A DNA stretch of 64,000 nt from Phellopilus nigrolimitatus (Eukaryota; Basidiomycota; Agaricomycetes; Hymenochaetales; Hymenochaetaceae): positions 124,001 to 188,000 of the forward strand of contig JAJOHG010000012.1 of assembly GCA_021029095.1 (NCBI GenBank), written 5' to 3'. The notes beneath the pieces were generated by a model. The model saw only the letters and a list, made by a program, of their open reading frames with translations, searched no databases and was not told the origin of the DNA. Position numbers and translations under genes: made by a program. Positions 26,765-47,701 of the stretch are shown in pieces (the first letter of the stretch is position 1; each line of letters starts with the position of its first letter).

Positions 26765-27035
26765 CAGTGCCCCAGGAAAGTCTCTGTCAACTTCTGGCCT
26801 CACTCTTTTCTCTCTGCCACCCGCCTGTTTGCGCCCCAGGGAAGTCGCTGTTACTTCCGGCCGCATCTCCGTATCCCGCTTTTTGCACTCCAGGGAAGTC
26901 GCTGTTACTTCCGGCTGCATATCTTCTCTCTACCGCCCGCTTTTGCGCCCCAGGGAAGTCGCTGTTACTTCCGGCCGCATCTTTCTACTCGTCTGTTGGT
27001 CCAGGGAAGTCGCTGTTACTTCCGGCCACCTCTCT
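26765..27035 (+). repeat. five-unit tandem repeat inside the retroelement
   Basis: The core CCAGGGAAGTCGCTGTTACT recurs at 26836, about 26890, about 26950 and 27001, with a degenerate first unit near 26771. Spacing is 50-65 bp because the linkers vary. It lies between the LTR and the captured host sequence. Confidence 0.8.
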
Positions 27036-27229
27036 TTCTCTCTCCACGACCTGGCTTGCCATCTCGTCTCTTTTTGACTGAGCTCTCGCCCATTCATCAT
27101 CGCTGTCTCTGTGTCTTTGTTCCGCCGAACGTGCTCCCTGATCATCCTTAGGTCTATCCCGTAGCTTGGCTTGCTGCCAGTTTAGGGTGTATCACAACTC
27201 AGTCACTCTCAATACCACATCCATCACCT

Positions 27230-27815
27230 CAAGCTTATCCTGCAACTAGAACGCCCCGAGGGACTCATGCGCCCTCAATCGCAGGAACATCCATCCCCAA
27301 GGGACTCTGCGCATTCCCAAACCAGTTGTCGATCGGGCGTGGTCATGCAGAAGCTCGCTTACTCCGCGTCGCCACTCGTCATGTCCAACCAGTCCAACCA
27401 GCCGAGTGCAGATTACATGAAGACGAACCCGAAGTCAGCCGCGCCACTCGAGCCGTTTGTGTGTGACGGCGCGTCGGACGAGGCAATCGCGAACGGGCTT
27501 CGCCGTGCTGGCAACCGATGGAGTCTTAACGGCTCGCAGCTTAAAATCGCGAACTGCAACCTCGCGGCAAACTCAGGATCTCTAATGGCGCGAGCGAGGG
27601 CACGGATGGTTCGACAACGCCTTCCAAAAACGTACGGGATGTGCTCCAAATTCACGACACGAGCTCGCTTGTTATCATCATCGTCGGACACCTCTCTGGA
27701 CTCTGTTTCGCCTCAAAATGCTGACGGTTTGAACTTGTCGTCGCATCCACGGGGCTCTTCAACTGACACGCTGAGCTCGGAGGGCTCTGCCTGAAGCGAC
27801 ACCCACCATCTCCTC
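27230..27815 (+). pseudogene. intron-less copy of a Pro/Ser-rich host gene in the retroelement
   Basis: The translation LERPEGLMRPQSQEHPSPRD runs on to MQKLAYSASPLVMSNQ, DYMKTNPKSAAPLEPFV and DEAIANGLRRAGNRWS. It matches the gene on the minus strand at 36190-38300. At the position where that copy has an intron (after PEGLE), this copy joins the exons directly, which points to capture from spliced RNA. A 10-bp deletion after KIANCNLA shifts the frame, and SSARSN of the other copy is here interrupted by TGA. It cannot encode the full protein. Confidence 0.8.
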
Positions 27816-28509
27816 TGACTCCCGAACAGCAAACCCCTGTTCGCGGCGTCGTTTCTCTCGTACTCTACACAACAGAACAGTCCGCCGGCCGATTTCTCAC
27901 ACGCACTTCCCCGCCCGACCCCTGTCAACGCTTCCGACATCCAGCCCATTCAAAACAACTTCACTACCAACCTCGATTCAAGTGTCGCTCCTCGCTCGCC
28001 TTTTGCTATCTTCGCTACCACCTCGAAACTCACTGCCCATTATCGCATTCCAAGAAAACTTCCGGCTCCTTCCGCTATGTCTATGATACACTTTATGTCG
28101 TTCGGCGGGTTGTCTCACCGCGTGAAGCAGAAGACGACTACTTCGGCGACGTGATTTTCGTATGACGCACTTTCGAAGTACGAAGCGAATGGACTCTTGC
28201 AAACAGTTATTCACGACCTTGCAACCATTCACACACGCTCATGACAAGAACAGCAACTCTTCACATCGACAGCGTCTCCCTACACTGCCGCGCTTCCGGA
28301 ACTACGTCTTGTAACGACCTCTGACTCCCAAGCCGCAAGCTCGACGAGCGCGAAGTGCTAAATAGCCTCCGTCCACATTTCTTTTCTCTCTACGCACTAT
28401 TTTAATGATCATGGACAATCTCGGACTGCTCCCTCTCTCTGCCTTCAAATCCAGTAGATGACTTCCCATCGACATCCCCCTGCCTTTTCTTTTTCAGAGT
28501 GGGGAGGAG
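27816..28509. other. retroelement interior, no coding sequence recognised
   Basis: This is C/T-rich sequence up to the purine tract before the 3' LTR. A minus-strand frame at 27978-28232 has no known motif. Confidence 0.45.
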
Positions 28510-28579
28510 TGTAACCTCCCGGCTACAGTTTGTCATGATTTCCTTTTTCGTCTCGTAGATATATGCGCGCGCACCGTAA
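28510..28579 (+). repeat. 3' LTR, first part (70 bp)
   Basis: It is identical to 26333-26402. It ends with CACCGTAA (28572-28579), the 8-bp target duplicated by the DNA transposon. Confidence 0.9.
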
Positions 28580-29012
28580 CACCTGTGACCCTACGCTTAC
28601 ACTATCTAACTAGACGCGTGTACGGGTGGGTCACACGCCTCTAGTTAGCTGCCATAGCGCCTATTTCCCTCTCCTGTGAATAATACTGTAGAATAATTGC
28701 TGAGCTTAGTACTGTGCTGACGTTGCCTGAGGGTTGCCGGCGGAGACCGGCTACTCGCCATCGCCGATGGCCGCGTCACCACGCGTGGATCACCGGCGCT
28801 GCCCGCGCCGGTGATCCACGCGACTTCTTGTCGCGATCAGCATGCACCGCCGGCTTGCCCCGCCACCCGCGACACCGAGATAGTCGTGCTCATCGTGCCG
28901 CACGATGAGCACGACTATCTCACTCAATTCTCCACCGTTTCCCTTCGTTTTTTTTGCACTGTATGTAGATTTTAGAGTAGATCTCAGACTAAATAAATAA
29001 ATTTTCATGTGC
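28580..29012 (+). repeat. left terminal inverted repeat, 433 bp
   Basis: It pairs with 47129-47561. Three hairpins are visible: 16-bp arms with one mismatch at 28606-28648, perfect 18-bp arms with a 5-nt loop at 28782-28822, and perfect 22-bp arms with a 1-nt centre at 28877-28921. One substitution relative to the right TIR was seen next to the 18-bp hairpin (GCGACTTC here, GCGATTTC there on the same strand). Confidence 0.92.
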
Positions 29013-29178
29013 ATTGCATAAATACATTGTTAGTTTCCTTGACAGAATTCACCACGGTCATGTGAGCGCGTCTAAATACACCACTTAGGCATACACGCTG
29101 TCCGTGTGCGCTGCAGACACGCCGCAATCTTCTTCTGCTGGGCTATATTTCTGCTGGGCTTTATTCCCCTAGGTCGCA

Positions 29179-32100
29179 ATGCCTCGTATGAATTCAGGCC
29201 TGTCTAGGAAAATCGTTTCAAAGGAGATTTCCCGGGACCGACGTGGCTACGCCAAGCTGAAGACTTCCACACGGACTGCCAGAACGGCAGAACAGGAGCA
29301 GGAAGATCTGGTGAAAGTCCGCCAAAGGGAATGGGGGAATCTTGGTGCGCAAATGAACGACAGCTCGACACCGATGGACGTCGACATCTTCCTTGGACTA
29401 GGCGAGCAAGAGGGTGCTGGGCAAGCGGAAGGGCTAGACGAATGGATCGAAGTCAACGAGGATAATGGCGAGTTTACCGAGGCGGACGTCGACAAGATTC
29501 TAGGAATACAAACGTGAGTCATGGCAAACTTCGATTCAAAGCCAAGGTTGGGACTGAACAACTCGTGACGCAGGTCGGGAAATAGGAACTTCACGTATGA
29601 GCGGAATCGAGTACAGCGCCAGAACGAAGACTGGAAGATTTTGATGCCGACCCTTGTCAAGGCGGTCCTCCTTTATGACCTGAGGGGTCCGCCAGATGAG
29701 GCGCATGCTGTCGGGCGGCATGCCCCTGTTCTCGTAGTAGATATGGAAGGTATGTGTTGATTCATATGTACGCCTTCCCAGTGTCATTTTACATTAAAAT
29801 GCAGGTCGTCGAAAGCTCTCATTCCCACTTATTCAAGACTCCGGCCTCACGGAAACGCTTGCGCGCCACGGTTATATTGCGACTGCGCCAAACCATCCCA
29901 GCCTCGCTTTCTCTGTACGAGTGCTCGAGTACTTCCAGATCCTGAATTCTCGTTGCGCGTCCCTCAGTATCCAAGCTTTCGTGCACGCCTTGTGCGATTT
30001 GCACAAGGTACGTTTTTATTTACCTCTTTCCCCTTCTGAAACTGACATATGATCATTTGTACTCAGGAACCTTACGACCGCACAATGAGACGAGCGTTTT
30101 CCTCCGCGTACGATGTTCACGTCGAAATAACCCATACGGTCCAAAATCAACTTGACGGCTTACTCCATAAAACAACTATCTCAAAGTACCAGGACGCGTG
30201 TCCAGCTTGCGTCTTTCGGGTAGACAATGAACCTCGCTTGAAATACTCCATGCTGACGTGCATGGACGGCAACGAATCAATGAAACGTGTCCGTCGGACC
30301 AGATTGGTGGACGAGCATACGTCCGTCTGTGTTGAGAGACCTGACGGCCGGGGGAGAGCTTCCCATATGTTCTTGGAGGCGGAGGAGGTCGATAAATTCA
30401 AGGACGAGGTCGCCAATGCGCGAGCAGTGCGAGCGCAAGCGCGAGCTCGTCAAGGGACTCAAGGGACACGCGAGAGGATGGCACAAACTGCCACGCCGCC
30501 CGGCTCGCAGCCAGTGACTTCGCTCGCTTCAGTTCCGACGGCCACACCATTGTCGACAGCGCAAACTGCTGCTTCAACCGCGCAAGCGTCCGCGTCGTTC
30601 GAACGAACGACGCAGACGCTTGCGCGGTCTCCGAGCATACCGCTGAACACCTTGCCAACACCGACACCGACTCCGTCAAATCAAACTACTGAACCCTTAT
30701 CGCTTGAAGGCGCAGACGACGCTTCGCCGTGCATTCCCCGATGGAAAAACATGTCCGACGACTCAAAAAAGAAAATGTGGGGTATTTTTGATGAGACCGG
30801 CATTTTTATTACGACGTGTAGGCACGGGGTAGTCCTCCTCATGTGCGATATGATCCAGAGTGGTGAACTGTGAGTTTATATATGTATTTCTCCGTTACAT
30901 GTCATGCACGTCTGCCAATCAACTCTTTATAGCGGAAAATATCCTCTCGCGATGATTGATCGCCTTATAGAAGTATTCGGAAGGGACATACTGGACGCAT
31001 CCGACATAGGATGTCAATTCTCAACGACAGCGAACAGCAGTGCGCTCGTCGGCCCAAAAATTCGCCAGAACAATTTTAGGTTTTGCGTCAACGCTTTCCA
31101 CGGGTACGCGCACTGTCGACAATGTCAACTCCAATGGCATCCGCTTTACACCGAAGGAGTCGGCCTTGAAGACTTCGAGACGTGCGAACGCGTCTTTTCG
31201 GAGTCTAACCGCGTTGCGACCTGCACAAGACATGCGTCGAAATTTCACCGCCGTCAAGCTCTTCTTCAACACTTTGCAAGATGGAACGCAGACAAAAAAG
31301 CTGAGATCAGTAAGTACTCATAGATTCACGTAAAGCACAACTTACGATATAACTTATGACAGGTCGTTTCATTTTGAATAACTATCGGCAGGCTCTGCGC
31401 AACATTCGCGACATCTCGTCAAACCTGGCCACTACAATGAGTTCTCTCCGGATAGAGAACTCGTATACTTTCATTCAGTGGCATGCGGAGGAACTCACGT
31501 ACTTGCAAAGCCTGCGTAAGCCGCCAGAAGTCGACATACTCGCCATGAATTACGTCAAGGCGCTCAAACGCTTGAAGGCTGCAGTGTAAGTCCACACATG
31601 CAATTGGTTTGCGGTTTAAAAAACTAAATGCAATTTACCATTTTGTAGTTTGTCCTATGAGAATACAAAATATAGGTGGATGAACACAGGTGCTGAAACC
31701 ATCCGCAGCACGTACAGTCGGGAGTCGGCGGCCACAAATTCGATTGAGCGCGCTCGCGAGAGGGGTTTAGAGACGGTCCTCTTCCACCAGAACTCCGCTG
31801 AAGAATACGAAACAAAATTGGGAGTTCAGCAGCGATGGACGGAAGACTCGGCAGAATGGAAAGCGGCAGATCTCACGCTCGCCGAGCAGGATTATCGACG
31901 GGCCCTCGATCATCTCGAGGGCCTCGTCGTCGCACGGCTGTTCGAGCTTTCCAAAATGGGTCGTGCAGGCACATGTAAGTCGTTAAATTTCATCTAGAAT
32001 AATGCTATATAATACGTTGATAGGTTGCAATTTGCGCACGCAAATTTCAAAAAGGCTGAAGGCAAGATCGGGCGCAGTTCGGAATGCAGTAGGCAAGTAC

Positions 32101-32643
32101 AACCGCGCAGCCGCTGCGTTGACGCCCCCCCGGCAGCCTCTTGAAATGAAGGTAGTTCTTGATTATGTTTTTCTTGCTGAATTCGACCTTCTCCGAGACA
32201 GCCGTCACAACATTCAGGAAAAGCGCTGGGCCCATTCGGCGGAGCGCGAGGCGGCAATTGCATACTACAAGCTGGAGCGTTCGCGCGAAGAAATCCCTCG
32301 TCTCAACACTGAAATCACTCGTCTAATGGCATACATTGTAGATAAGGAAAAGCGCCTTGCGGACGCTGCAACCATTCTGGAGGAAACGGATCCTGCGCTT
32401 GCGTATCAGTTGAGGAAACGTCAAAAATTTGAAGTGGCACTGAATGCGGTACATAGACGGCGTATTTACGAAATAGCTGCTCTCGACGGATTTACAGGTG
32501 ACAGGCATGCTATTTCCGCCTTCTGCACAGCAGAAGGCGGCATTATTCAGAGAGGAGATGAGTTGGAGGACGAGGGTGGTGACGGCGACAACATCGATGA
32601 TAACGTCGAGGCAGCCTTTCAAGTTCTTTCTTTCGGTGACTAG
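29179..32643 (+). CDS. KDZ (Kyakuja-Dileera-Zisupton) family transposase
   Basis: Eight exons give about 1,040 residues without a frame break. Family landmarks in order: CPACVFRVDNEPRLKYSMLT with CMDGNESMKR (Cys cluster and first Asp), MWGIFDETGIFITTCRHG, KYPLAMIDRLIEVFG, SDIGCQF, NNFRFCVNAFHGYAHCRQCQ and GLEDFETCERVFS (candidate catalytic Glu). A long charged coiled region and an acidic tail ending QVLSFGD follow. These match KDZ transposases, which are expanded in basidiomycetes and act by a DDE-type mechanism. A Ser/Thr/Ala-rich linker between the Cys cluster and DETGIF contains a 25-bp-arm palindrome (30577-30628). The intact frame suggests the element is autonomous. Confidence 0.9.
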
Positions 32644-33005
32644 GTCTTTTTCTTAAATTAATTATCATTTCCTCGTTATATACAAGAAGTTTCATGTGTC
32701 TGTACAAAAGTTGTGTTGTAAAAAGTTTGCAACTTGTGTTTTCGCTATGTAGATGTAGCTAGTTTTAAATGATCTGCATTCAACTCGGTGTGCAATCAGA
32801 GACAACTCAAAGTGATCGCTCAGACAATTATAAAGAAATCGGGAAAAAACTTTTTCTTGCTCGTATCATCTTAACATCACAAAAGCCCCTTTGTTCTCCA
32901 TTGAAAGGTGGACTACCTTTCGGAAAGGCTTGAGGCAAGAACGCGAGATACTCAAGTTCTTGGTTTCCAGTACATTTAAGAGATACGAGGGTCAAAATTC
33001 CTCAG

Positions 33006-33097
33006 TTTTCTCAATTGGACCCTTTTTACAGATAAATCAAACCAGTATCTCTAGATACTGGTTTGATTTATCTGTAAAAAGGGTCCAATTGAGAAAA
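33006..33097. repeat. 45-bp-arm inverted repeat with 2-nt loop
   Basis: The left arm 33006-33050 and right arm 33053-33097 are perfectly complementary as read, with CT between. It lies in the gap between the transposase and the zinc-ribbon gene, both on the plus strand. It could form a cruciform in DNA or a long hairpin in RNA. Confidence 0.95.
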
Positions 33098-33266
33098 AAA
33101 ACGCAGCTCTTTCGAATACTACAGAGTGCCACCAGTTCCATATAAGGTAAATCTGTGTTTGTATATTTCTTAATTTAGGCAAAGATCAACGTCGTTTGGC
33201 TTCAGATACACGTTGATCGTCGTCGATCGTCTGTCCATCTACCATCATTTCACTCAGCTTTCTGTC

Positions 33267-34723
33267 ATGCCCAACGCTCAGCTGATCCGCTGCTCGTCAT
33301 GCAATCGGGCTTACAGCCCGAGTCTGCATTGCAAGTCTTGCGGAAGCCCGCCCATTGACTACGCGACATCCTGTCAAGAATGCTCGAGCCCACTTCCGCC
33401 GCCACGGGTCGCAAAATCCTGGGACATCAACCCGGCGGCGTACGAGAAGATGCAGAAGGAAGCCCAGAAGCAACCAAACGAAAACGATTGGCGTTTCCAT
33501 CGGCCAGAGCAGGACTGGACGAATGAGCAAAAGGTCATGTTTTTTGACCTGATGCTCGCGCACGCCGCGCGTTCCGACGAAGACTTTCAGAAGGCACACA
33601 GTACGAAGAAATACTCGAACTACACTCCAAAGAAACCAATGCGCTTGATCCACGAGAGGATGGTCGACAAACTCCTCAAAGGTCTTGTAAGTTGCTCATT
33701 CGTCATTTACATTATTATGTATTCGCTCGACTCGTTTATAGGTGAATCTAGCGATGGAAGAAACGGATCGTCATTTCTTCATTATCGACTTCAATCTCGA
33801 CATGCTCACAAACCTGAAAACGCCAAACCAAGACTCTTCGGCGGTGGCCCTCTGCGAAGCGTTTTCGACGAGTATCCCCAAGTGCATGCACAAAGAACGG
33901 TCCGAAATTGAACGATACTTCGCAGACCTTTTGCCCAAGATGGCGACAACTCTCACCGACTTCGCAAATGCAGCAAAGACACGGCGGGAATGGTCCAATG
34001 AAATTATGATTGTGAGTTTTCTTTTACTCCGCTTTATTTGTTTTTATGTACTAATAATGTTTTGTTTGTCTTTAAAAGTCCAACGCATTCGCTAAACCTA
34101 ATGTCTCCGATCCACGCGCGTCTCGCGCGTCTCGCGAGGCCATCAATGAAACTCGTCACGCTCAATCCACGACTGCAAAGGCGTCTCGTCTGAAGGCGTC
34201 GGCTTCATCCCCTGCGAAGGCCATGCCTTCGCAGGGGATGCAGCCCGACATTTTTAACACAGCTACATTTTCTCCAAAAGTCGGCCCGTCACCAGCGTCT
34301 ACCCCATCACTGTCGTCCGTCTCGTCTGATTCTACGCTCGAAAAAATGCTGGATGACTTCGGCTTCGATAAAGGCAGATTTGCCGAGTTTTCACCTGCCC
34401 CCGTACCTCGCACTCCGCGACAAACCCGGCTCCAGAATACACCCACGTATGCGAGCCGCGCGAGCCCGTCATTGCATTCCCAGCCAAGTACACTCGATAG
34501 CCCGCATACCCGCACTCGCTATGTGTACGCTTCCCCGCAGCCACCCCCCCAGTATAATTTCCAGCCGCCCCCCCAGATTGTTTATCAGCCGCACCCTCAG
34601 ATGGCTTATCAGCCGCCTCAACAGATGGCTTATCAGCCGCTTCCCCAGCTCGTCTATCAGCCGCAACAGCAACCTCATCAGGAAATTTTCCGACGCTACA
34701 CACTCCTATATAGGACAATATAG
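33267..34723 (+). CDS. zinc-ribbon protein of the KDZ element
   Basis: Three exons encode about 445 residues. The N-terminus has three CxxC-type pairs (RCSSCNRAY, HCKSCGSPP, SCQECSSPL), a double zinc ribbon. A mostly helical middle follows (DWTNEQKVMFFDLMLAHAAR and, after the first intron, NLAMEETDRHFFI). The C-terminal 200 residues are Ser/Pro/Gln-rich and end in near-repeats of YQPxPQ. I do not know the family. Its place next to the transposase suggests an accessory DNA- or RNA-binding factor. A perfect 16-bp-arm palindrome (34206-34240) lies inside the third exon. The stop is TAG 34721-34723, directly before the minisatellite. Confidence 0.75.
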
Positions 34724-35110
34724 GTCATGTAGCTTTGTAGTGGTTCATAGATACCTACCCACTATATTGCCCAACATAGTGTGGGTGGTCCATAGTTCCA
34801 TAGCACTATAGGCATGTAGCGCTGTAGCTGTATAGTGATGTAGGTACGTAGCATTGTAGGTACGTAGCATTGTAGGTACATAGCATTGTAGGTACATAGC
34901 ATCATAGGTACATAGCATTGTAGGTACGTAGCATTGTAGGTACGTAGCATTGTAGCTTTGTAGTGGTTCATAGATACCTACCCACTATATTGCCCAACAT
35001 AGCATTGTAGGTACATAGGTACGTAGCATTGTAGGTACGTAGCACTATAGGCATGTAGCATCGTAGGTACGTAGCACTGTAGGCATGTAGCACTGTAGCA
35101 CTGTAGTGCG
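34724..35110 (+). repeat. left minisatellite array
   Basis: A 16-bp unit, GTAGGTACGTAGCATT with variants such as GTAGGTACATAGCATT, is repeated between about 34840 and 34960 and again at 35000-35110. A longer segment containing CTACCCACTATATTGCCCAA is duplicated within the array. The reverse complement of its core word is the core of the array at 44446-44890. Confidence 0.9.
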
Positions 35111-35149
35111 GAGAGGGATATTTCACTTTTTTTGCTCATTCAGAAACTT

Positions 35150-35164
35150 GGGGGGGGGGGGGGG
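35150..35164 (+). repeat. 15-nt G tract
   Basis: Fifteen consecutive G lie just inside the left minisatellite, and a GGGAGGGG-rich stretch follows near 35245-35275. The exact length may be an assembly estimate. Confidence 0.8.
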
Positions 35165-35424
35165 TGCTATTGTAAGGAATGCACTATATTGCAGCTCTAC
35201 ATAGGTACACTGAGAAGCTACTACATATGGGTAGCTCTGGAAAGAGGGGGAGGGGAGGGAGGGGAGGGAGAAGCTTTATGAGAGAGAAAGCGGGGGAAAT
35301 GCGATGGGAACATACAGGATAGGCACTCACCTCATACTCAAGAGGCGGCGAGGCCTAAGATCGTGAACCCATGAGACCTAGATACAAGATATCGTAAACA
35401 TTTCTGCTCCCCCTATCCATGGCT

Positions 35425-35675
35425 CTACTCTTGCCCGGGCCCGAGATAGTGCCTAAGGCTGACCCCGAAGCGCTCGAGGGGCCCAACTTGGACACGGAGC
35501 ACGAGCGCGGGGCAAACCTGAGCTCAGGGGAAACATCGATGTGGGTGGAGCGGAGGCAGGCGGGGGCGGGAAGTAAAGCGCGGGCTCGGCGGCGTAGTAT
35601 GTGTCAGGGGCAAGCGGCGACGTGCCAGGCGGCAAAAGGAGGCGCTGTGCTGTGCACTCGGAAGCCCCTGTTGCA
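35425..35675 (-). pseudogene. PAK-kinase gene fragment in the transposon cargo
   Basis: The nucleotide sequence aligns with 7865-8100, the Ser/Pro-rich coding segment upstream of the CRIB domain of the PAK fragment near 8 kb. The shared word is GTGGAGCGGAGGCAGGCGGG. In the corresponding frame there is a stop, and the CRIB part is absent. A short piece of the same region seems repeated near 35870-35920. Confidence 0.6.
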
Positions 35676-35734
35676 CGTCACCTGAATCCCATGAGTTTCG
35701 TGTCCGGCGACAATGAGCTTATGCCGCACCTTTA

Positions 35735-35825
35735 TATTGTTCTCGATGAGTCGTATTCGCGACAGGACCTCCTCCGTGCTGAGACTCATAATCTCCTCTG
35801 CAGACCCAGGTGCGGAGAGATCGGC
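35735..35825 (-). pseudogene. RPT5-like (26S proteasome ATPase) N-terminal exon fragment
   Basis: One short exon reads SAEEIMSLSTEEVLSRIRLI followed by ENNIKV, then a GT donor. This resembles the N-terminal coiled coil of the proteasome base ATPase Rpt5. No ATPase domain follows in this window, so only a fragment is present. The match is short and the call is tentative. Confidence 0.45.
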
Positions 35826-36189
35826 GCATCACGTTTGTGACGCATCACACTTTTGTGCTAGGCAGCGCAAGGCGGCGGCACTGTGCTGTGCGCTCTGGGG
35901 GTCCCTGTTGTGGGGGGAAAAAGTCGTTCAGGTTGACGGTGTTCTGGCACAAGGGGCATAGGGGGGCGTAGCAGCCGTTCACCATTGCGAAGGAGTGCAC
36001 CATGGCCATGCCCGCTTAGCGTGTTCGTTGAGCTTTCCGTCTGCCCAGACAAAATACCAAACGGCGAGGAACTGCCCGAAGCATTGCAAGGTTGCTGAGC
36101 GTAGTTAATACTTGCTTCCGAACTTGTAGACGAGTGGCGGGGATTCGCGCTGGCGGTGCTGCTACCCATTCTCTGAGACGGAATCAATA

Positions 36190-38300
36190 TAATAAATGTG
36201 TGCAACAGCGGAGTAAATGCACCTGGTTCATGTCAACTACGTTGGCGTTCTTTGCAGCCATGTGCCTCCCAAACTCGGGACCTGCAGTGACAGGATCCGG
36301 GGAAAGAGCCTGGATCGAGGTGTTCGCGAACATCGGGTATGCCGACTTGTTTTGCTTCGTCGCAACAGGGGCTTCAGCATTCGTGTCAACACGTAGCGCG
36401 CCACCCGGTGGCTTGTGTCCACTGAACTGGTGATAGCCGCCACTCGCACCACTCTCCATTACCGACGCAGCGGTGGGTGTCGTCGCACTGGACGTGCCCT
36501 CCTCGTGCTTGCACTTCGCAGTAATACGCGCGAGTAGCGACGCCTGTGCGTCGTTCGGGTCACTGTTCGTGCTCAGCGAGCGAGCGCGCCCATCTGCCAC
36601 CGGCGGGGGAACATTGGTTTGTGACGATTGTGGGGTCGTCGGCACGCCATTCGAGACACCATACTGTGGCACCGTCCGCTGAAGCGCACCCATCATCTCC
36701 TGACCGTACTGAGGCTGCGGACCCACGCCAGGAAAGTACTGGTTTGGATAACCAGGAGGAGTCATTACCATCGGGGGGTACATGCCAGGTGTCGGCGGGA
36801 ACAGCATGCTCTGCATGTTGTGCATACCCGCACCGAGTAGCAGAGAGGCCGCGTCGCGCAGGCTTGCTGGATCGGATGCAGAGTACTGGCGACCAGGGCG
36901 GAATGTCTGCTGCGTACGGCCGATGGCGGGATCCAGCGGGACCGTCGTATATTTGTTGCGAGTTTCCCAGCGGGAATGCATTGTGGTGCCCATGGGCATT
37001 TGGCATGCCCGGATACCCGAAGTTCGTTGGGCTGGGGAGGAGTGTCGGCGGTGCTTGCGAGGACATCTGCATCGCTGATGGAACATGTTCACGCCGCGCA
37101 TCTGTTGGCGGTACGCATCTGGTTGAACGTGGCGCATCGGCCCGTTCGTAGGGACTTGAGCAAACGGTGCTCCACGGCCTTGGCCGCCGTTGACGAATTG
37201 ACGAGGCTGAATCGTAGGATCGACTTGTAGCTCATCATGACGCGCTGCGGGACCTTGATGAGCGAAGCCCTGCGCAGGTAGACCAACAAACTACGGGAAA
37301 AAGAGAAGATGGTCAGTGTCATAGCACGCGTGAATGTGAATAGAAGAACGAACAGTAGGCTGCTGGACATCAGGATATGCGGCTAGAGAAGGGAACATGG
37401 GCTGTGTCGGACCACTGATATTCTCTCCACTTGGTGTCGAAGACGGCGGCATGCTATCTCCGCCGCCGTTAACATCCCTAGTCAGGGGTGAACCTCTATC
37501 CTGGAGAGATTCAGGAAGCTGAGAAGGGGTATGGATGTTTTGGAGGCGGCGCAGCTCCACGTCTGAGATTGCGCCGCTAAACGACCGTGGCCTATCCTTC
37601 GTCAGTTCTGTCGAGAAAGGAGACGCTTTCAAGGAGTTCAGGTGGGCGTTGCTTCGCGCAGAGCTTTCCGAGCTCAGCGTGTCAGTTGAAGAGCCCCGTG
37701 AGTGCGACGACAAGTTCAAACCATCAACGTTTTGAGGTGAAGCAGAGTCCAGAGAGGTGTCCGACGATGACGTATCAAGCGGGCTCGTCTCGTGAATTTG
37801 AAGCACATCCCGCACGTTTTTGGAAGGCGTCGTCGAACCGTCCGTGCCATCGCTCGCGCCGTTAGAGATACTGAGTTTGCCGATCTCGTCGGCGAGGTCC
37901 CAATGTCCCAATTCGCGATTTTGGGCTCCGAGCCGTTAAAACTCCATCGGTTGCCAGCGCGGCGAAGCCCGTTCGCGATTGCCTCGTCCGATGCGCCGTC
38001 GCGCACATACGGCTCGAGCGGCGCAGCTGACTTCGGGTTCGTCTTCATGTAATCTGCATTCGGCTGATTGGACATGACGAGCGGCGACGGTGAATAAGCG
38101 AGCTTCTGCATGACCGTGCCCGATCGACGACTGGATTGGGAAGGCGCAGCGTCCTTTGGGGATGGGCGTTCCTGCGAATGAGGGCGCTGACAAGTTAACG
38201 AAGACGCATCAACAGAGGGCACTAGAAGACAGGGCTAATACATACTTCGAGTCCCTCGGGGCCTTCTAGCAGTTCGTGTGACTGGGCCCAGTCATATGAT
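36190..38300 (-). pseudogene. Pro/Ser-rich regulatory-type gene with frameshifts, cargo copy
   Basis: Exons read from the right: YDWAQSHELLEGPEGLE, an intron, then MQKLAYSPSPLVMSNQ, DEAIANGLRRAGNRWS, SSSDTSLDSASPQNVDGLNL, RSFSGAISDVELRRLQNIHT, an intron, VGLPAQGFAHQGPAARHDEL and MLFPPTPGMYPPMVMTPPG, ending near NVVDMNQVHL. An 8-bp tandem duplication ATTGGGAC (37893-37908) shifts the frame between NW and DLADEIGKL, and further frame changes lie near 37.06 and 36.93 kb. Low-complexity composition suggests an RNA-binding or signalling regulator, but I do not recognise the family. Introns are kept, unlike the copy in the retroelement. Confidence 0.7.
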
Positions 38301-38799
38301 TTTGTTTGGCGAGCGAGGGAAACTGACGAGCGATGATTTGAGGCAGGGGGTGGAGAAGCTCGTGACGGCTGTGGAGGAGGACATGAGGAAGTCGCGTACT
38401 GAAACTGGGAGGTGTGGGAGGAGGGTCAGCATCATTGCGGAGGGATGGAAAGCATCATTGCGGAGGGATGGAAAGCAATGGCGAGAGATTTGAAGGACTT
38501 ACTAGTTGATAAAGATTATGGCTGCAAGACGGATGAGGTAAAAAGGAAGAGACTTGCAGGATGAGAGGTTCTTCTGCGCTGCCTTCACAAACTCTTGCTG
38601 CTCGAGTTCCATAATCGAGTCCGGGGCGACGCGCAGTGCTTCTGGCCTACCGCGCGCGCATGCTTGCGATATGCCTCACTCTGCATACCCGTTGGAGGGA
38701 GCGACATGTGGCCCGTAATGGGTGCCTCTGCCTATAGGATGCCCGGACGCTTGTGCTGTGCGACGAGGTAAGTCCTGAACCTCTCGCAGATCCCTGAGA

Positions 38800-39305
38800 A
38801 GCTAAGTAAAAAAATAAAAAAGAACGCGCACGAGCTCGCTGCCCGCGGCGTGCGGGTAGTGCGTCATAGCAAAGTTGATGTAAATGGCGCACGAGCGCGG
38901 GGTGCGCGGCGACGAGGTCCATGATGCTCTCGCGCGTGAAGGTCTCCTCGCGGAAGCGGCGCTTGATGTCGTTGAGGACCTCTGCATGGGAGGGGTTCGC
39001 GGCGTCGAGCGTGTTGCGCAACGCGAGGTACGCGGGGCCGAGGCGGTTGCAGAAGTGCTGCGCGAAGGCCCAGCCGGCGTACGCGTACGTCGCCTCCTGC
39101 ACGGCGTGCCCCGCGCGCGCGCCGTCGGCGCGCCGGAAGAAGGGGTTCGCGGGGAGGCAGAAGAGGAGGGACGCTTCCTTCATGACCTGCACGATGGCGT
39201 GCTCGATGGGCGGGACGCCCGCGGGGGTGGCGGGCAGCGGGTTGAGGTAGAGCGAGACGATGGTGACGCCGTTCGAGAACTACTCGACGTACTTGGGGAA
39301 GCAAG
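38800..39305 (-). pseudogene. GDH2: NAD-specific glutamate dehydrogenase fragment
   Basis: The translation contains KYVEYFSNGVTIVSLYLNPL, IEHAIVQVMKEASLLFCLP, AGHAVQEATYAYAGWAFAQH, FCNRLGPAYLALRNTLD and LNDIKRRFREETFTRESIMD. This is strongly the large fungal NAD-GDH, the mitochondrial enzyme that turns glutamate into 2-oxoglutarate and ammonia. The frame changes after AAHPALVR, where YINFAMTHYPHAAGSELV continues in another frame. Less than a fifth of the protein is present and the catalytic domain is not. It is a captured internal fragment. Confidence 0.85.
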
Positions 39306-39394
39306 AAAAAGACGTGGCAAGAAAAGTCAAGTTCAACATGTAACCGTTACATTTGTGACATATCACAATTTCGAAAGAAAATTTGCTTAAGTCC

Positions 39395-39850
39395 TGATCA
39401 TGCTCCTGCTCGTCGTCTCCGAGACCGGGCTCTTGTATACCTTCACCATCGCCAAGCTGCAGCCGCTCGTCAAGCAGCTCGAAGGCAAGAACCTCATCCA
39501 GGCCTGTCTCAACGTGCCGCACCGCCCGCTCCCCTCCAACATGCCCGTTGGCGCGCCGCTCGACTTCTCGGCCCCCCGGTAGATGCAGGCACCCCCCGCG
39601 TAGGCCGGCAACAGTCCCAACCAGCCGCAGATGGCGAGCATGCAGGCCACAGGCGGCACGCGCAACTTCCCCGGGCTCTCCATCAGCGGCACGCCGCCCG
39701 GCGGGCCCGGCCAGGAGGACGACGCGGGTGGCGACCACGGCGACAATGTCGAGACGGAGGGTGAGAAGCGCAGCTCCGTTCGCTGCCGCACGTCCGCCTC
39801 CAAAAACGCAGGCGGCCCAACCTCGCCGAGCCCCGCATCAACCACAGAAG
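39395..39850 (+). pseudogene. MCM1: MADS-box (Mcm1/SRF-type) gene fragment
   Basis: LLLVVSETGLLYTFTIAKLQ followed by PLV and EGKNLIQACLN is the second half of an SRF-type MADS domain (Mcm1), a transcription factor in cell-type and cell-cycle control. The DNA-binding first half is not seen upstream. Two in-frame stops follow shortly after (SAPR-stop near 39580, QAPPA-stop near 39601). Gly/Pro-rich sequence such as TRNFPGLSISGTPPGGPGQ continues beyond. It is a non-functional fragment. Confidence 0.8.
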
Positions 39851-42792
39851 CTGGCGGAAGACTTTGTTCGGTGGATGCTCGTGCTGTGGCCTTTAGCAGC
39901 TACTCGAATGAACCTCGATGCATTATCGGAGTGCTTTGGCTCTGTACTGGCATACATGTCCTCTGACCTGGCTTTCCCAAACGGGTTTGCGTCTGTCTGC
40001 GTTTTAGTCGTCCGTTCCTTCCGTCAGTCGATTGGCAACTCGTCGAATAGAAAAAAGGTATGCCGGTTTCGTGTTCATTTTGACCGAGCTTTGCTAATAT
40101 CTTCGGTTGCAGACGTTCTCCACTTTCACTCAGTACAATTTTACGCGCTGAGTGCGCTTTATATGTGCAGAACATGCGACAGAAACTCCCGAGCAACGCG
40201 ACGAGAAGTCTCTGAAGTCCGAAGTCCTTCAGACCGGCATCGAAGTTCTTTTTCCCGTCGAGTCTCTGAAAGGCTCCGCAGATCCTCTAGAGACTCTCCT
40301 CACAGATTACTTCACGCCTTCAATTTTTCAAAAAGCACAACTTCGAGTCCTGCCCCAATTGTACAAAGTGTATGTCCAAGAAACGCGTAAACATCGTTTC
40401 GCCATTTTTGGGTCCGGCTCAAGTCAATCTCAGGAGCAGACGGTTCAGAATAAAGTCAGGGATACGGGAATGTCTGCATTCACTTCCTGCTATAAAACGC
40501 TCCGTGTATACGGCGATGAGCTGGAAGTCTGGCAAAGCGTGTTGTCCTTGTTGGAGGTCTTAGAGGAGGCAAATCTGGTTGGTTTCGGCCTGTCCGAAAG
40601 CGCGAATGTTCTAAACGACATTGTGACTTGGGCCGTCAATGCCCTTAGTACATCAACAGGTAATCATCGTCTTACTCCTAGAATAGTATATATGTTGACA
40701 CATCCGTACGTTTTCAGCCTTTCCGAAGAAATCCGAAGCCGCTCTCAAAATAATATGCGTACTAACTCACATAGACCTCGAGATTATCAGCCCCCTCACG
40801 GGAGAGATTCTCTCAGACATTATAACTGTACGCTTTGATCATAAGTACATGGTCTCCTTACCGTCTTATTGACACGATAATTCCCCGCAGATGAACCCTT
40901 CGGATTTACCTGCTAGTCAATCACTTCTACACGAACTCCTCGACTTCCACTCGAAAACCAGGACGATTCCGGTGTTCCTCGCGGTGTTGATTGATTGCCT
41001 ATCGAACTCTTCGGGAAGTTTAGCGGCGACTTTTCTGAGGTACAAAAAGCACACCGAGCGTGTACATCAGGACCTCTTCTCAGTCTCGCTCATCTGGAAG
41101 GACTGTCTCGGGCCATCAAGGGTTTCCTCACACCGGGACAGACACCTGAGACTGTCCAGGCTGTCCTCGAAGCTTTGGAAGCGGTTTGGATAACGTACGC
41201 CGATAGTTCTGGCAGTGATGATACAATGGATGTCGACGAGGACGCGAACGATAGAGCCTCTAATACGAAGTCGGCAAATGGTAGAAAGCAGAAACGAAGA
41301 AAAACTGACGAGCCAGCTGTACCCATGTCCCCAAAGGAACGCGCAGCTCTTTCGTACTCTTTCGTTGCACGCGCTGTCGCCGTCATCCTCCCATCCCTTC
41401 CCTTCTCGACTCTTCCTGAATCATCATATGCTACTGTGTGTTCGAGCATCTCTGAAGCTTGGGAAAAGTTCTTGGGAAACGCTGCTCAGTCGGCATTCAG
41501 CGAGAAGACCAATGCACCCTGCTGGACGGATCAGATTGTGACTGCTGCGACGCTGCGTATCCGCCATGCTTTTGCGACATGCTCTTCGCTGCGCTCCTTG
41601 AATACTCTAGACGCCAGGATGATCCCCTGTGGGATGACCGCCGGATTAATACGCTTCGCAGAAACAACGCCAGAGCTGATCGTCGAACTGGTACACCCAC
41701 TTCTGTTTGACCTGTAAAATTCACGCTCACGCCTGATTTTCAGCTTCGTTCTTTCTTTGATGAAAACCTACGGGTCACCGACCCCGAAGAGCAAGATGCT
41801 ATCATCAAGGCTATGCTCGCCTACCTATATACCAACTTGGCGTAGCCGACGCATCTAACAAAGGCTTTAAGCAGATCGAACGAGATGCGGCTCGCATGAA
41901 GTGGGACGCGTCATCAAGTTCACTAGACTTCTCAGAGCCAGGCGGGCACGGGAGAGGCGCACTGACTGTTCGGCATCTGTTATTAGACCGCTGGCTTTCG
42001 ATTATTGAGTATGTGTTATGTCGTACCCAATACGTCTTGCCCGTCTCCAATTGGATCAACCAGTGAAATTGCCTCAGCGGAGCGTTTAAAATCCCTCGCA
42101 GGGCTATGCGTATCGCGAACAATCACGAGCAGTGATACATGTTCGGAAAGCATAATGTTTAGTTGGGTTGTAGGACGAGCAATGTGCTCGGCCGAGTTCT
42201 GGGAGCTGACAAATTTGAGAGGTAAAGATAATGTTTCCCCTCCGAATGATATTTGCAGTGGTTTACCAAAAACCATTTAGATGCGATGACATCCATTCTT
42301 GAAGAAACTTCAGAGCATGGCCGCTGGGTCGATTTCTCCGTGCTAATGAAACAGGTCGAGTCCAAGCCGAAGAAAGTGGCCATCACATGGGATATACACC
42401 AAGTGCAGTCAACGGCCTCATTTTTTGAGTTACTGCTTCGCTCCCCAAGAGAATATCTCCCGCGGTCTTCGAAGTCCATATTCTACCGACGAGCTCTGGT
42501 ATCCGAACTGGCTGTCTTCTTGAGTATGCGGCAATCTAGTGTGGATATGACTCTTGGTTATCGTACGAGGACTATCATCCGCGCGTGGTTGAGCTCCGTA
42601 TCGGACATGTTCAGTATTCTGGATGTAGTGGTGAGACAGTATTTTACCCTGATTTTGATTGATTTTCTGAACTATCGCGCTAAGGCCGAACCAGATGACT
42701 ATATCGAACATCAGATGAGTTCGAAAATTGAGTCAGAGAATGCGGACGACTGGTACTGGTCTGCTGGTGAGCCCGACCTTTCGAGACTCTGA
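39850..42792 (+). pseudogene. large multi-exon gene fragment, possibly Urb2/Npa2-like
   Basis: Several exons with introns read as a mostly helical protein: AEDFVRWMLVLWPLAATRMN, YFTPSIFQKAQLRVLPQLYK, LLHELLDFHSKTRTIPVFLA, PKERAALSYSFVARAVAVIL, LRSFFDENLRVTDPEEQDAI and WFTKNHLDAMTSILEETSEH. The pattern reminds me of the ribosome-biogenesis protein Urb2/Npa2, but I am not certain. Frame changes near 41.01 kb and 41.84 kb (YTNL / GVADASNK) and an incomplete start mark it as broken. Introns are kept, so it was acquired as genomic DNA. Confidence 0.55.
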
Positions 42793-42819
42793 AAAAATAA
42801 CTTTTGGTTCTAATATACA

Positions 42820-43443
42820 TTGCTCGATAGCCTACGCTAATGGTCTTTCTCTGTGCACGTCGCGCCCTCACCAAACTCGGCCTCGCTGACAAGTACGAGA
42901 GTGTCGTCGAGCCTGATGGTGAACTCACTCTCACCGAGGCGCTCGACGAGGGAGATGTGCCCCGCCCTTTCAAATGCTACCTCGACTGGCTCCCGCGTCT
43001 TCGGCGCGATGAAGGGTGCGTTGCACAGCAATATCTTCATTCCGCACTCGGAGAAGCGTTTCCCCGGCTACGACCCAGAGGCGAAGACGCTCGACGCCGA
43101 AGTGCTGAAGAAGTACATTTTCAGCGGGCACGTCGCGGAGTACATGGAGTCGCTCGAGGAGGAGGACGATGAGCGCTTCAAGAAGCAGTTCGCGATGTAC
43201 CTCGCGGATGGCGTTGGCTCAGAGGACATGGAGGAGATCTACACGAATGCGTACGCTGCGATCTGCGAGGACCCGACATTCAAGCCGACGGAGAAGTCGA
43301 AGGACTGGAAGGCGGAGAGCCTCAAGCACAAGACACACCGTCTCACACACGAACAGTGCGTCGAGAACATCCAGACGAAGTTCAAGACGTTCCAGGCGGG
43401 CAGGAGCGCCGAAGCGGAGATTGACGAGGACGAGGAGGAATAA
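42820..43443 (+). pseudogene. RPL5: 60S ribosomal protein L5 fragment
   Basis: ARRALTKLGLADKYESVVEP, then PRPFKCYLD, FIPHSEKRFPGYDPEAKTLD, YIFSGHVAEYMESLEEEDDE and DGVGSEDMEEIYTNAYAAI are unmistakable RPL5 (uL18). A small deletion between FKCYLD and TGSRVFGAMKGA shifts the frame, and another frame change precedes ARRALTK. Only the C-terminal two thirds is present; the 5S-rRNA-binding N-terminus is missing. The stop is TAA near 43441. It is a captured fragment, not a working gene. Confidence 0.9.
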
Positions 43444-44445
43444 ATCCGACGTATTTTTTTGGTTCAGTTGAGAGAGGTGTTGCACCTAAACCTCCAGCCG
43501 GGCACTGCACAGTCCGGTGCGCCAGGCATGCTGATGGACGCGACGCCGTACTCGATGTTGGGCGCGCCCGCACACGGGAGTGCAGAATGCGCACACCCGC
43601 AGCCGTGCCCGTTCCAGGGACAGGTGTACCCCCACCTGGGCGTGCACCACCCCATGCCCCATGATGGGTGCGCCGCCGTACTATATCTCTGCTTTGTATG
43701 TCGTATGGTGCCCCTGCTTTCCACATACCTCCCATTTCTTTTGTCTTCTGTTTTCTGTCTTCGAAGCTGTATCCAAATGGATGAGAAATGATTCTCACCC
43801 TCTCGTTTCGAGTTTTCTTCTCTTCCCTTTGCACATTGTCTCCTATGTAATACTGCGGGCATCCCTGTCTTTGTACATGCATTGTGTTTTCTGAAATTTC
43901 CTTTGCACTGAAGCAATCAATGGAACTGTGTCTTTCTTGAATCTATCAGTTGTCTGGGGGTGTGGTGGTGTGCAGCTAGCCATAAAATTCGCAAAATGGT
44001 GACTTGTCACAAATGTGACATGCTGATCTTCCCGGAAAGATTAATACGAAACAAATTTGTCTTTGCACCTTTGCCTGCAGCCTGCAACTATTCTCTCCCA
44101 GTGAGTGCCCATTTTGCCTTTGTGTGCACTGTGCAACCACATTGATAACAGATAACCTGCCCACATCTATGTCATGTAGGGCATAGCATGAGTTGACCTG
44201 TGGGTATTAGCATTTTGCTAATAGCACAGCAAGTTCAGCTTCAATTTGAACACTCTTACATGTATTATGTGTGTGCTATTGCATACAGTAGAATACAGAA
44301 ACACCCATCTTGATTGGTGCACTATTGACAAATCTAATGTTGAGGTCATTTAAGACCTATTTATATGCTTTCCGATCTCTAATCTATTTGCTATGGGCCT
44401 CTGACTCTCTAAGCAATTTCTACGGCCCTTCCATATGCTTCCCAA
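43444..44445 (+). other. cargo remnant, unidentified, then AT-rich filler
   Basis: A plus frame up to about 43690 reads GAPGMLMDATPYSMLGAPAH and QGQVYPHLGVHHPM, typical of a His/Pro/Gln-rich tail of a fungal regulator. A 3'-UTR-like T-rich stretch follows. From about 43.95 kb to the minisatellite I see no gene. Confidence 0.35.
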
Positions 44446-44890
44446 GCTGCCACACTATGTACCTACAGAGCTACAGAAAGCTACAGACTCCTACAGTGCA
44501 ACCCAGCTATGTACCTACAGAGCTACAGAAAGCTACAGACGTCTACAGTGCAACCCAGCTATGTACCTACAGAGCTACAGTAAGCTACAGAGCTACAGTA
44601 AGCTACAGACGTCTACAGTGCAACCCAGCTATGTACCTATAGAGCTACAGTAAGCTACAGACGTCTACAGTGCAACCCAGCTATGTACCTATAGAGCTAC
44701 AGTAAGCTACAGTAAGCTACAGTAAGCTACAGTAAGCTACAGATGTCTACAGTGCAACCCTGCTATGTACCTATAGAGCTACAGTAAGCTACAGTAAGCT
44801 ACAGACGCTACAGACGTCTACAGTGCTACAAGTCAACACTACAATTTTGCTACAATAGCTATGTGACGCTACAGATGTCTACAGACGTCT
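44446..44890 (+). repeat. right minisatellite array
   Basis: Units of about 52 bp contain CTATGTACCTACAGAGCTAC and AGACGTCTACAGTGCAACCC, with internal repeats of AGCTACAGTA. The word GCTATGTACCTAC is the exact reverse complement of GTAGGTACATAGC in the left array. Confidence 0.9.
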
Positions 44891-45536
44891 ACAAACCAAC
44901 GCTGAAAATCCATTTTCCTGATGCTGCGTATGACTCGTCTGGATACATGGCTTTGCCGCCGCAACACCCTCCACCATGGCCCGCACCTTCACAGTACCAT
45001 CAAGGTACGCGTGAAACGAACTATGAGTCGGAGGAGGAAGGGGAGTCGGGGGAGCGGCTTGGCGATGTCAGCGCGCAGTGGGAGCGAGGCAAAGAAGAGA
45101 AAGGAAAGGGGAGGGCTCGCGAGTATAGTGACAACTAGGGCTCGAGGAATTCAAGGTTAGTGTCGAAATATCTCCCTTCTAACTGTCTCAACTATGCATC
45201 CAACTGATATTCAAACAGATTTTGTTCAATGTCGACAAGACGCGCACTGACGAGACGTAGTCGGCAGGCTTTATGGACGTTATCTCGATCGAGAATTGGA
45301 TCTGCTACTTTCTCTTGTTACTGGTATAGCTGCGTATCATATTCACTATAACTCATGCATTTCTTTCTACAATCTCTCGCTTTTCAGATGTAAATAAGAT
45401 ATTTGCTGAGCAAGACATCGGTTAACCCATTAATTACTTCATTGTCGCCAATGAATCGTGAGAGCTGCAATTAAGCGAAAAAAAGTTGAACGCTGACACG
45501 TTCAACTTTTTTTCTCTGTTACTACCGCCGTCTACT

Positions 45537-45569
<33 letters not shown>

Positions 45570-45626
45570 GCTGTCTATTCATTCGTCCACCGTCTCATTC
45601 GATGCGCGCTGCTTCGGGATTCCGGC

Positions 45627-46958
45627 ATGAAACACAATTTTAGAGTTTATGTGAACCGCGCGACGCAGCGCCTCATGAAAGAGCGGAGACGTCGGCGTGC
45701 CAACAATCTCAGTGCAGTCCAGAGGCATGAAGCTGCGAAAAGGAGTGCGGAGAAGGCATCGACGGTCCAGAGAGTGTGCGAGAGATACTGGGATTTGGCA
45801 GAGAATTATGTCGAGGAACTCGTGAGATTAGGGATGAAGGAGCCGGCTGCCCGAAGGCGTCTCCAACGTTTATCGGGATATGGCTTCCGCCGAAAGCCAA
45901 ACGCTTACAACGCGTTCATTCACATCAAGAGTTTGGAAATTAACCCGGGTACGTTATCATTATTCCTCTTCATGCACTTCCCCCCCTGACAAGTCAAATA
46001 GATCTCCCAGAGGGAGATAAACATCGTCTTGCTGATCTACAACAACTCGCTCAATCAATGGATTGGGCCACGTTCTCCCGGGACAGACGGAACCGCGAAG
46101 AGATCGAAAGTATGAAAGCCGCTGTCCTTCAGTACCGTCAGACGAAGGTAAAAGGCGTCCGAAGCCAGCGTAAAGCGCAGGCCAAAGACGTAAGCTTGAC
46201 ATTGTCACGGATCGATTCTGAGGTACGTCTTTTCTTTTCTTTTTTGATATGTTGTTTGCTAAGTGGATCTGCTTTTTAGCTTTCTGAACTCGCCGCTCGA
46301 TCTGATGTCTCGAACCTGCGCGTGACTGTCCGGCAGAAACCCAGTCAAACGGTCTTCCCGAATGCTTGCGGAGACCCCGTCATGAAACAGTTCGTTCAGG
46401 TCTGCTTAGGTCTAACCTGGGACGACTTTGTCAAGCAACTCGAGGCATACTCCGTCTCGGGCCTCGTGGGTGTCGTGAGTAATGAAAATAAACGTAAAGT
46501 TATGCACAAGAAAAGCATTAGAAACATGATACGTTCCTCACTCCGTAAGTGTTTGATTTCCTAGATAATTACAGCTTTCGATACTAATTAGAATAACAGA
46601 TGAAGCGACAGGTATTTCTGATGTGGAGATGTCATGGAAGAATTACGACAGGGACATCGTCAGTGAACTCGGCGTTGAGCTCGTTGGCTGGCCGGTCCGA
46701 CCCATTGGACCTATCGACAACCTCAACTGCACGACACTAAATGACATTGTCAACGGATTGACCAACGGCTCCATTTATTGGACAACTTCTGGCAAAGAAG
46801 CGCATGCGAACGGCGACGAAGGACCATCGAAGCCGCGCAAATTGCGCAGCGACAAGGGAAAGAAGAGGGGGCCATACGCTAAGAGGGCCGCCGCGCAAAC
46901 AGAGATGTCTATGGATGAGGAGAGGGATGAGGAGATGAATGGGGAGAGTGACACGTAG
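45627..46958 (+). CDS. KDZ-element accessory protein with HMG-like N-terminal segment
   Basis: Four exons encode about 385 residues with no break. It opens with a basic helical stretch (KERRRRRANNLSAVQRHEAA). RRKPNAYNAFIHIKSLEIN then loosely resembles the start of an HMG box. A Lys/Arg-rich helix follows, then GLTWDDFVKQLEAYSVSGLV, SWKNYDRDIVSELGVELVGW with PVRPIGPID, and an acidic tail with a KKRGPYAKR basic patch. I recall similar hypothetical proteins with an ELVGWP motif recurring in mushroom genomes, but cannot verify this. Its position at the other end of the transposon from the transposase suggests a mobility or regulatory role. An upstream frame at 44863-45138 might be an extra 5' exon. 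Confidence 0.7.
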
Positions 46959-47128
46959 CACTATTTTTTGCTCCCATGTTTTTTCCTTACACTAATCATA
47001 TGTCGTTAATGCTACCTTTGCTTTCGCTGAACCTCTGCCTAACGAGTCGACTATTATCAAGCCTTCATTCTTACATTGTTGTCTGTTGTGCTGGCAGCCT
47101 TATAACAGTTCTGTAACCTTCACATAGC

Positions 47129-47561
47129 GCACATGAAAATTTATTTATTTAGTCTGAGATCTACTCTAAAATCTACATACAGTGCAAAAAAAACGAAGGG
47201 AAACGGTGGAGAATTGAGTGAGATAGTCGTGCTCATCGTGCGGCACGATGAGCACGACTATCTCGGTGTCGCGGGTGGCGGGGCAAGCCGGCGGTGCATG
47301 CTGATCGCGACAAGAAATCGCGTGGATCACCGGCGCGGGCAGCGCCGGTGATCCACGCGTGGTGACGCGGCCATCGGCGATGGCGAGTAGCCGGTCTCCG
47401 CCGGCAACCCTCAGGCAACGTCAGCACAGTACTAAGCTCAGCAATTATTCTACAGTATTATTCACAGGAGAGGGAAATAGGCGCTATGGCAGCTAACTAG
47501 AGGCGTGTGACCCACCCGTACACGCGTCTAGTTAGATAGTGTAAGCGTAGGGTCACAGGTG
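47129..47561 (-). repeat. right terminal inverted repeat, 433 bp
   Basis: It is the reverse complement of 28580-29012 with one substitution noticed. The same hairpins are present, with perfect arms at 47220-47264 (22 bp) and 47319-47359 (18 bp). Its outer end reads ..GGGTCACAGGTG followed by CACCGTAA. Confidence 0.92.
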
Positions 47562-47569
47562 CACCGTAA

Positions 47570-47701
47570 TTCGAGCTTCGTCTTCTCTCACTCGAATTAC
47601 AGGTACGTGCAAACACTGTATTTAATTGGTCTTCTCTCACTCGAATTACAGAGTTTTCTCCCGTCTGTTTTCTAGTGTTCACACCTCTCGGTGTGCTTCC
47701 A
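47570..47701 (+). repeat. 3' LTR, second part (132 bp)
   Basis: It is identical to 26403-26534 and continues the LTR interrupted at 28579. ACATT (47702-47706), the retroelement's target duplication, follows directly. Confidence 0.9.

Follow-up and report, generated by a model that had tools for sequence, protein, structure and literature searches.

We analyzed a 64,000-bp stretch of the Phellopilus nigrolimitatus genome (the window, C24:124001-188000; C-numbers designate contigs of the assembly, which has 635 of them and totals 56.4 Mb), in which three transposons are nested: a long terminal repeat (LTR) retrotransposon contains a KDZ element, which contains a Plavaka-type element (hereafter the block, window 34676-44923) that carries pieces of eight host genes (Table 1). 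The arrangement of these features, their copies elsewhere in the genome and the joints between the gene pieces very probably reflect a PlavakaB-like Pack element that carries the cargo, lies within a gene of the KDZ element, itself nested in the retrotransposon, and gained its cargo by stepwise internal capture.

Table 1. Features of the nested transposons, in window coordinates. Percentages are nucleotide identities to the related gene elsewhere in the genome.
Feature	Position	Strand	Details
LTR retrotransposon, host of the nest	26333..47701	+	5-bp target duplication ACATT on both sides
5' LTR	26333-26534		
3' LTR	28510-28579 and 47570-47701		split by the KDZ element
CCCH zinc-finger gene fragment in LTR retrotransposon	27028..27807	+	86-92% to C1:2213905-2212682, in four blocks
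KDZ transposon	28580..47561	+	433-bp inverted termini, 8-bp duplication CACCGTAA
KDZ left inverted terminus	28580..29012	+	
KDZ transposase domain, two exons	30049..31308	+	PF18758, E 4.4e-26 and 3.8e-46
KDZ second gene	33267..45138	+	split at 34675/44924 by the Plavaka element; start and end placed by eye
Putative non-autonomous PlavakaB-like Pack element (block)	34676..44923	+	10,248 bp, ends CATCAGGAAA...TTTCCTGATG, duplication CT
Left subterminal tandem repeats	34728..35108	+	
PAK kinase gene fragment, part before p21-binding domain	35429..35673	-	84% to C457:169497-169743
RPT5 fragment	35678..35800	-	123 bp; 92% to C635:92021-92143; parent matches RPT5 in PDB
PAK-associated fragment	35858..35966	-	continues the first PAK part in older relatives
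CCCH zinc-finger gene fragment	36000..38565	-	93% to C1:2210566-2213583; PF00642 in parent
LEO1 fragment	38565..38801	-	86% to C603:426980-426723; PF04004; LEO1 chains in PDB
GDH2 fragment	38828..39295	-	95% to C24:591649-591180; PF23152 in parent
MCM1 fragment, first part	39401..39843	+	85-87% to C35:350114-350599
URB2 fragment, inserted into RPL5 piece	39846..42756	+	94% to C1:2347241-2350154
RPL5 fragment with intron, inserted into MCM1 piece	42755..43479	+	87% to C223:781838-781086; PF17144, PF14204
MCM1 fragment, second part	43482..43941	+	83-84% to C35:350589-351331; 284 bp of parent missing
Right subterminal tandem repeats, CTACAG-type	44411..44900	+	
KDZ right inverted terminus	47129..47561	-	

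The two 202-bp LTRs of the outer retrotransposon are identical, and its intact 5' LTR provides the empty site for the KDZ element, which sits in the 3' LTR. The KDZ element combines all features of its class (transposase domain, inverted termini and 8-bp duplication), and its borders are those that the first-pass annotation had given. A genome search with the KDZ terminus returned 117 matches, from which 15 paired copies were set out (the E-numbers, named by contig); unpaired ends, for example C24:30712, C327, C302, C555:758177 and C606:30741, stand outside this paired set. The 8-bp duplication was found in 13 of the 15, the exceptions being E9 and E567, whose printed ends do not both reach the terminus. 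The interior is common to the window copy, E201a, E567, E629 and E606; for the remaining ten, the matches listed (about 80 bp or more) fall in the termini. The decisive copy is E201a (C201:198528-207260, 8,733 bp), which is free of cargo: it aligns to the window copy left and right of a missing 10,248-bp stretch and differs from it by only three substitutions and two small indels; two further differences, of three bases and one base, lie at the cut edges of the compared pieces. In this C201 copy the frame of the last exon of the second KDZ gene crosses the insertion site uninterrupted. The cargo was thus not at the locus before the KDZ element, a possibility that the first-pass annotation had raised: the block inserted itself into a KDZ copy that was already in place.

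The first-pass annotation had recognized a gene-capturing element and took the KDZ transposon itself for the collector, which would be consistent with the position of all fragments between the KDZ termini and with the TET/JBP gene described as cargo of KDZ elements (PMC12730594; statements on cited papers refer here and below to excerpts of them). The near-identical E201a copy lacks exactly this block, and because it is cargo-free the collector must be sought elsewhere than in the KDZ element; moreover, the block has termini of its own and lies at other sites. The same annotation proposed to look for copies with different cargo: E201a has none, and of the other large relatives three (E567, E3 and E131) are enlarged by further inserted elements, judged by eye from ends and reading frames. 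E567 holds a retrotransposon with gag-pol-like frames and a doubled CTAAG. In E3 the first of two extra pieces has CACTTCAGG termini, in E131 the insert has TAGRGCTC termini, and each has a duplication of 8 bp. Collection of the genes by the KDZ element is therefore very improbable.

Several other properties of the KDZ copies were observed. Each terminus contains two near-perfect palindromes (41 and 45 bp) that are kept in many relatives (window 28782-28822, 28877-28921, 47220-47264 and 47319-47359), and near-perfect inverted repeats occur inside the element at 30577-30628, 33006-33097 and 34201-34245, the first and last of them in coding stretches. Positions 3074-6445 of E131 (C131:17128-26841) hold an insert, about 1.56 kb long and present twice as an inverted repeat, whose termini are TAGRGCTCACCACGAGTCC and whose duplication is TCTGCGGA; among ten frames scanned, one matched NAD-epimerase weakly (23.1 bits against a cut-off of 20.9). 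The copies at C201:88593 and C3:5654 share the same 8-bp duplication and have identical 1,000-bp left flanks, one of the pair being enlarged by nested insertions, and they are probably alleles or a duplicated locus.

The block begins with CATCAGG and ends with CCTGATG, so that the termini 5'-CATCA..TGATG-3' of PlavakaB are present at both ends, and it recurs with the same ends but different flanks elsewhere. Published PlavakaB elements have CATCA..TGATG termini and duplications of 2 or 3 bp (PMC12730594), and we assigned the block as PlavakaB-like because its ends and the length of its duplication agree with that description. A pattern search of the genome found the exact two end types at ten sites each, and flanking 2-bp duplications matched in four of five elements: CT in the window, with its empty site, TT in C113, TA in C555, and CG on C154 and C335, if these two contigs adjoin. 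Three elements of 22.5-23.0 kb (C113:100298-123314, C390:35750-58353 and C555:761232-783781) combine one end of each type with PF18759, and over the first 375-383 bp their left ends match that of the block at 84-85% identity; no PF18759 match was reported in the block itself. Taken together, its termini, duplication and PF18759-bearing partners point to a non-autonomous Pack element of PlavakaB-like, CACTA-related type, and the Plavaka transposase of the large same-ended elements probably moves it. A 4-kb sample of the C555 element, scanned in five of its eight listed frames, gave one match over the Pfam cut-off, to LAG-3 activator (E 4.5e-6) in a Gln-rich stretch, and one weak SAMP match below the cut-off. 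A second Plavaka-like end type, CATCAGGAAACTGCATTTTC, was seen at nine sites, on C13, C38, C135, C335, C518, C533, C567 and C605.

Helitrons are the classical stepwise collectors of genes, as in maize, and the first-pass annotation had considered a Helitron-like origin alongside a pack-type one. Helitrons have neither inverted termini nor target duplications, whereas the block is bounded by CATCAGG and CCTGATG as inverted termini, and the empty site is known at which 2 bp were duplicated; of these two suggestions the pack-type one stood, and on the evidence of ends and duplication a Helitron can be dismissed almost with certainty.

The DNA matches tie approximately 8.2 of the 10.2 kb of the block to eight genes (as the sum of the matched stretches), and related genes at 83-95% identity are found elsewhere in the genome, as candidate parents or closest copies; these were read in part and are presumed to be intact. 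The fragments are consequently not the sole copies of these genes, as the search for parents proposed in the first-pass annotation was meant to establish. A blastn comparison of the block with seven parent pieces (that is, all except PAK) gave 10 hits, and none of 20 versions of the block shuffled in 50-bp blocks matched any of the seven. All seven genes named from the letters alone (PAK, RPT5, a Pro/Ser-rich gene, GDH2, MCM1, an Urb2-like gene and RPL5) were matched, with LEO1 as an eighth, and the Pro/Ser-rich piece, which proved real, derives from a CCCH zinc-finger gene. This last fragment is without 467 bp of the parent that hold the zinc fingers. Identification of the other pieces drew on different evidence. 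The MCM1 parent has an SRF-TF domain and an MCM1 match in PDB; the GDH2 parent found no match in PDB. The URB2 parent piece itself matched nothing in Pfam and nothing significantly in PDB, and the name was given because the one PF10441 match reported for the genome lies 1.2 kb downstream of it; the copy in the block is collinear with 2.9 kb of the genomic parent. The RPL5 copy spans an intron that tblastn placed in the parent between C223:781828 and 781765, in keeping with the earlier description of the fragments as partly intron-containing, and this retention implies that genomic DNA was copied. The best named hit for RPL5, at 85%, was Sanghuangporus vaninii, as expected of a basidiomycete host. 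TET/JBP was considered as cargo and rejected, the genome giving one sub-threshold Tet_JBP match, on C446, outside these elements.

The PAK piece was identified by DNA similarity and not by domain: 9 of the 19 listed frames in the PAK/RPT5 stretch, together with one other frame, gave no domain match over the cut-off. Its match on C457 directly precedes a p21-binding domain (C457:169797-169973) and a kinase domain (C457:170584-170994), and this PAK gene, the closest found outside the listed element stretches, is a candidate source. The two PAK parts adjoin in C68:2622-2914, C25, C249, C24:704091-704383 and C611. Outside the nest, the window contains a p21-binding domain on the minus strand at 7642-7818 (PF00786, E 8.6e-23), and beside it a stretch that matches the PAK piece at 78% (window 7873-8013); this would be another PAK gene or fragment.

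The outer retrotransposon (26333-28579, 47570-47701) and the Plavaka element carry pieces of the same CCCH zinc-finger gene, and related fragments occur on C146, C379, C22, C631 and C85. The retrotransposon fragment is without three stretches of the parent; splicing is a possible origin of these gaps, at which no clear splice sites were made out.

The genome has cargo next to a left end at six sites, each with a different flank: in the window, on C601, at two sites on C154, on C87 and on C417. C601 and the two C154 sites have the same fragments as the window at approximately 99.7% identity or better over the cargo, as estimated from bit scores, and C87 and C417 have the left part of the cargo at 99%. 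One C154 copy and that on C601 reach the starts of their contigs; the other C154 copy is interrupted from 32659 to 35042 by 2.4 kb, and 8 bp are repeated there. Four sites on three contigs thus carry one set of fragments, identically ordered but differently flanked. In a 635-contig genome in which several copies stop at contig ends, segmental duplication or misassembly might be suspected of having put the fragments together; this recurrence of one fragment order within different flanks makes such an origin highly unlikely. The features that define Pack-type elements are all present here: non-autonomy, transposon boundaries, host coding DNA sourced elsewhere, and occurrence of the unit at several sites.

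Relatives of the block appear to preserve earlier stages of its growth. On C434 the MCM1 fragment is a single block, and RPL5 was not found in the 1 kb of this contig that was read. C68 has MCM1, RPL5 and again MCM1, without URB2; when the nine bases shared at the joint are assigned to RPL5, MCM1 continues at the very next base of the parent, and the last 9 bases of the first MCM1 part in the window may likewise belong to RPL5. The 10-bp spacing between the MCM1 and RPL5 matches in C68 is repeated in C25 and C36, and in C457 the two lie 846 bp apart. The URB2 fragment of the window takes the place of 10 bp of the RPL5 piece, with a 2-bp overlap. The RPT5 fragment lies in the PAK piece, with a short target stretch repeated on its two sides, at 35625-35650 and at about 35858-35886; this stretch is single in C68 (2818-2843), where PAK is without RPT5. 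C68 and C25 hold more of PAK, with p21-binding domain and kinase matches just beyond, and the gap between PAK and MCM1 in C68, C25 and C457 (435-502 bp) is too short for the zinc-finger, LEO1 and GDH2 pieces. No transposon terminus was seen at the joints read (RPL5/MCM1, URB2/RPL5 and RPT5/PAK). Sequence identity would make MCM1, PAK, LEO1 and RPL5 the oldest pieces and GDH2 the youngest.

These observations point to a series in which RPL5 was inserted into the MCM1 piece and URB2 then into the RPL5 piece, with RPT5 entering the PAK piece separately from this series and the zinc-finger, LEO1 and GDH2 pieces being added as well. As read from the joints, each capture most likely began with a break inside the element that was repaired by synthesis from other chromosomal templates and closed by joining with little homology, and the finished package then moved as one unit.

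The same Plavaka Pack element could also have acquired its cargo by tandem insertion and hybrid excision, the model proposed for plant Pack-CACTA elements (PMC8903248, PMC13317346). Plavaka belongs to a superfamily related to CACTA, and left-type and right-type Plavaka ends lie 878 bp apart at C601:8945-9823. PAK genes also lie near relatives of the block, roughly 4-5 kb away on C457 (169497-170994) and about 9 kb away on C25 (56278-56746), a proximity that fits the capture of neighboring DNA and for which we slightly raised our estimate of this model. Against it stand the nested pieces (RPL5 in MCM1, URB2 in RPL5 and RPT5 in PAK), with no terminus at the joints read, and the dispersal of the MCM1, RPL5 and URB2 parents over C35, C223 and C1. 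We consider tandem insertion and hybrid excision rather unlikely, and favor repair of internal breaks from distant templates as the better fit to the joints.

Besides the nearby PAK genes, several observations weigh against the proposed Pack element and its growth by internal capture. The mode of capture is deduced from the joints, and an alternative reading of the RPL5-MCM1 joint has about 11 bp of MCM1 repeated. C434 begins at a different MCM1 base, and the contig ends before the right terminus. The end pattern is not rare by itself, with 36 sites compared to 16 for the reversed control; the C390 element shows no duplication, its flanking bases being CG and TA, and the match in C154 and C335 presupposes that these contigs adjoin. 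The left 525 bp diverge more than the cargo, at 91-93% identity for one C154 copy and C601 and 84% for C87 and C417, this divergence between copies being mostly in repeats. Finally, GDH2 is 95% identical to its parent, yet the same capture seems to be present in a relative on C2 that shows 85% identity with the window, so that identity is an unsure clock.

The preservation of several growth stages of a Plavaka Pack family in one genome makes the order of captures and their joints directly readable, and is thereby relevant to the still unsettled matter of gene acquisition by cut-and-paste elements. For annotation it is a warning, since the pieces of eight ordinary genes at this locus are transposon parts. 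A more speculative extension, which we regard as possible but doubtful, is that PlavakaB elements of basidiomycetes in general are serial collectors of host DNA by templated repair, that they keep layered records of capture, and that they, rather than Helitrons, are a main route by which gene fragments are shuffled in these fungi.

Among known systems, the PlavakaB elements of PMC12730594 resemble the block in their CATCA..TGATG termini, 2- or 3-bp duplications and, as in its partner elements, PF18759; they differ in that their cargo is TET/JBP, a gene reported there from both KDZ and Plavaka elements, whereas the block has eight host-gene pieces and no transposase match. We found no report of Plavaka elements capturing other host gene fragments in the small part of the Plavaka literature covered. 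Helitrons of Pleurotus (PMC4289320) are likewise basidiomycete transposons with captured genes, but they are rolling-circle elements, and the excerpt reports no capture of P. ostreatus gene fragments. Transduplication by hAT and Tc1/mariner elements in Pyrenophora (PMC3538342) and hAT elements with histone H3 in Pseudocercospora (PMC6710886) provide fungal precedents; the hAT histone H3 case of the Dothideomycetes (PMC3538342, PMC6710886) is similar to ours in that a fungal DNA transposon multiplies a host gene, and unlike it in concerning mainly one gene, in ascomycetes, with a transcript in P. fijiensis, in contrast to the several genes and the retained RPL5 intron of the block. The plant Pack-CACTA and Pack-TYPE elements (PMC8903248) share with the block its non-autonomy, inverted termini and coding DNA from several loci, and differ from this fungal element with Plavaka termini, whose fragments are lodged in earlier fragments. 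Multi-gene Pack-type elements have been described from plants, and the fungal reports that we found concern mainly single genes or TET/JBP. The block would therefore represent a known Pack-type phenomenon in a new form: multi-gene, fungal and Plavaka-based.

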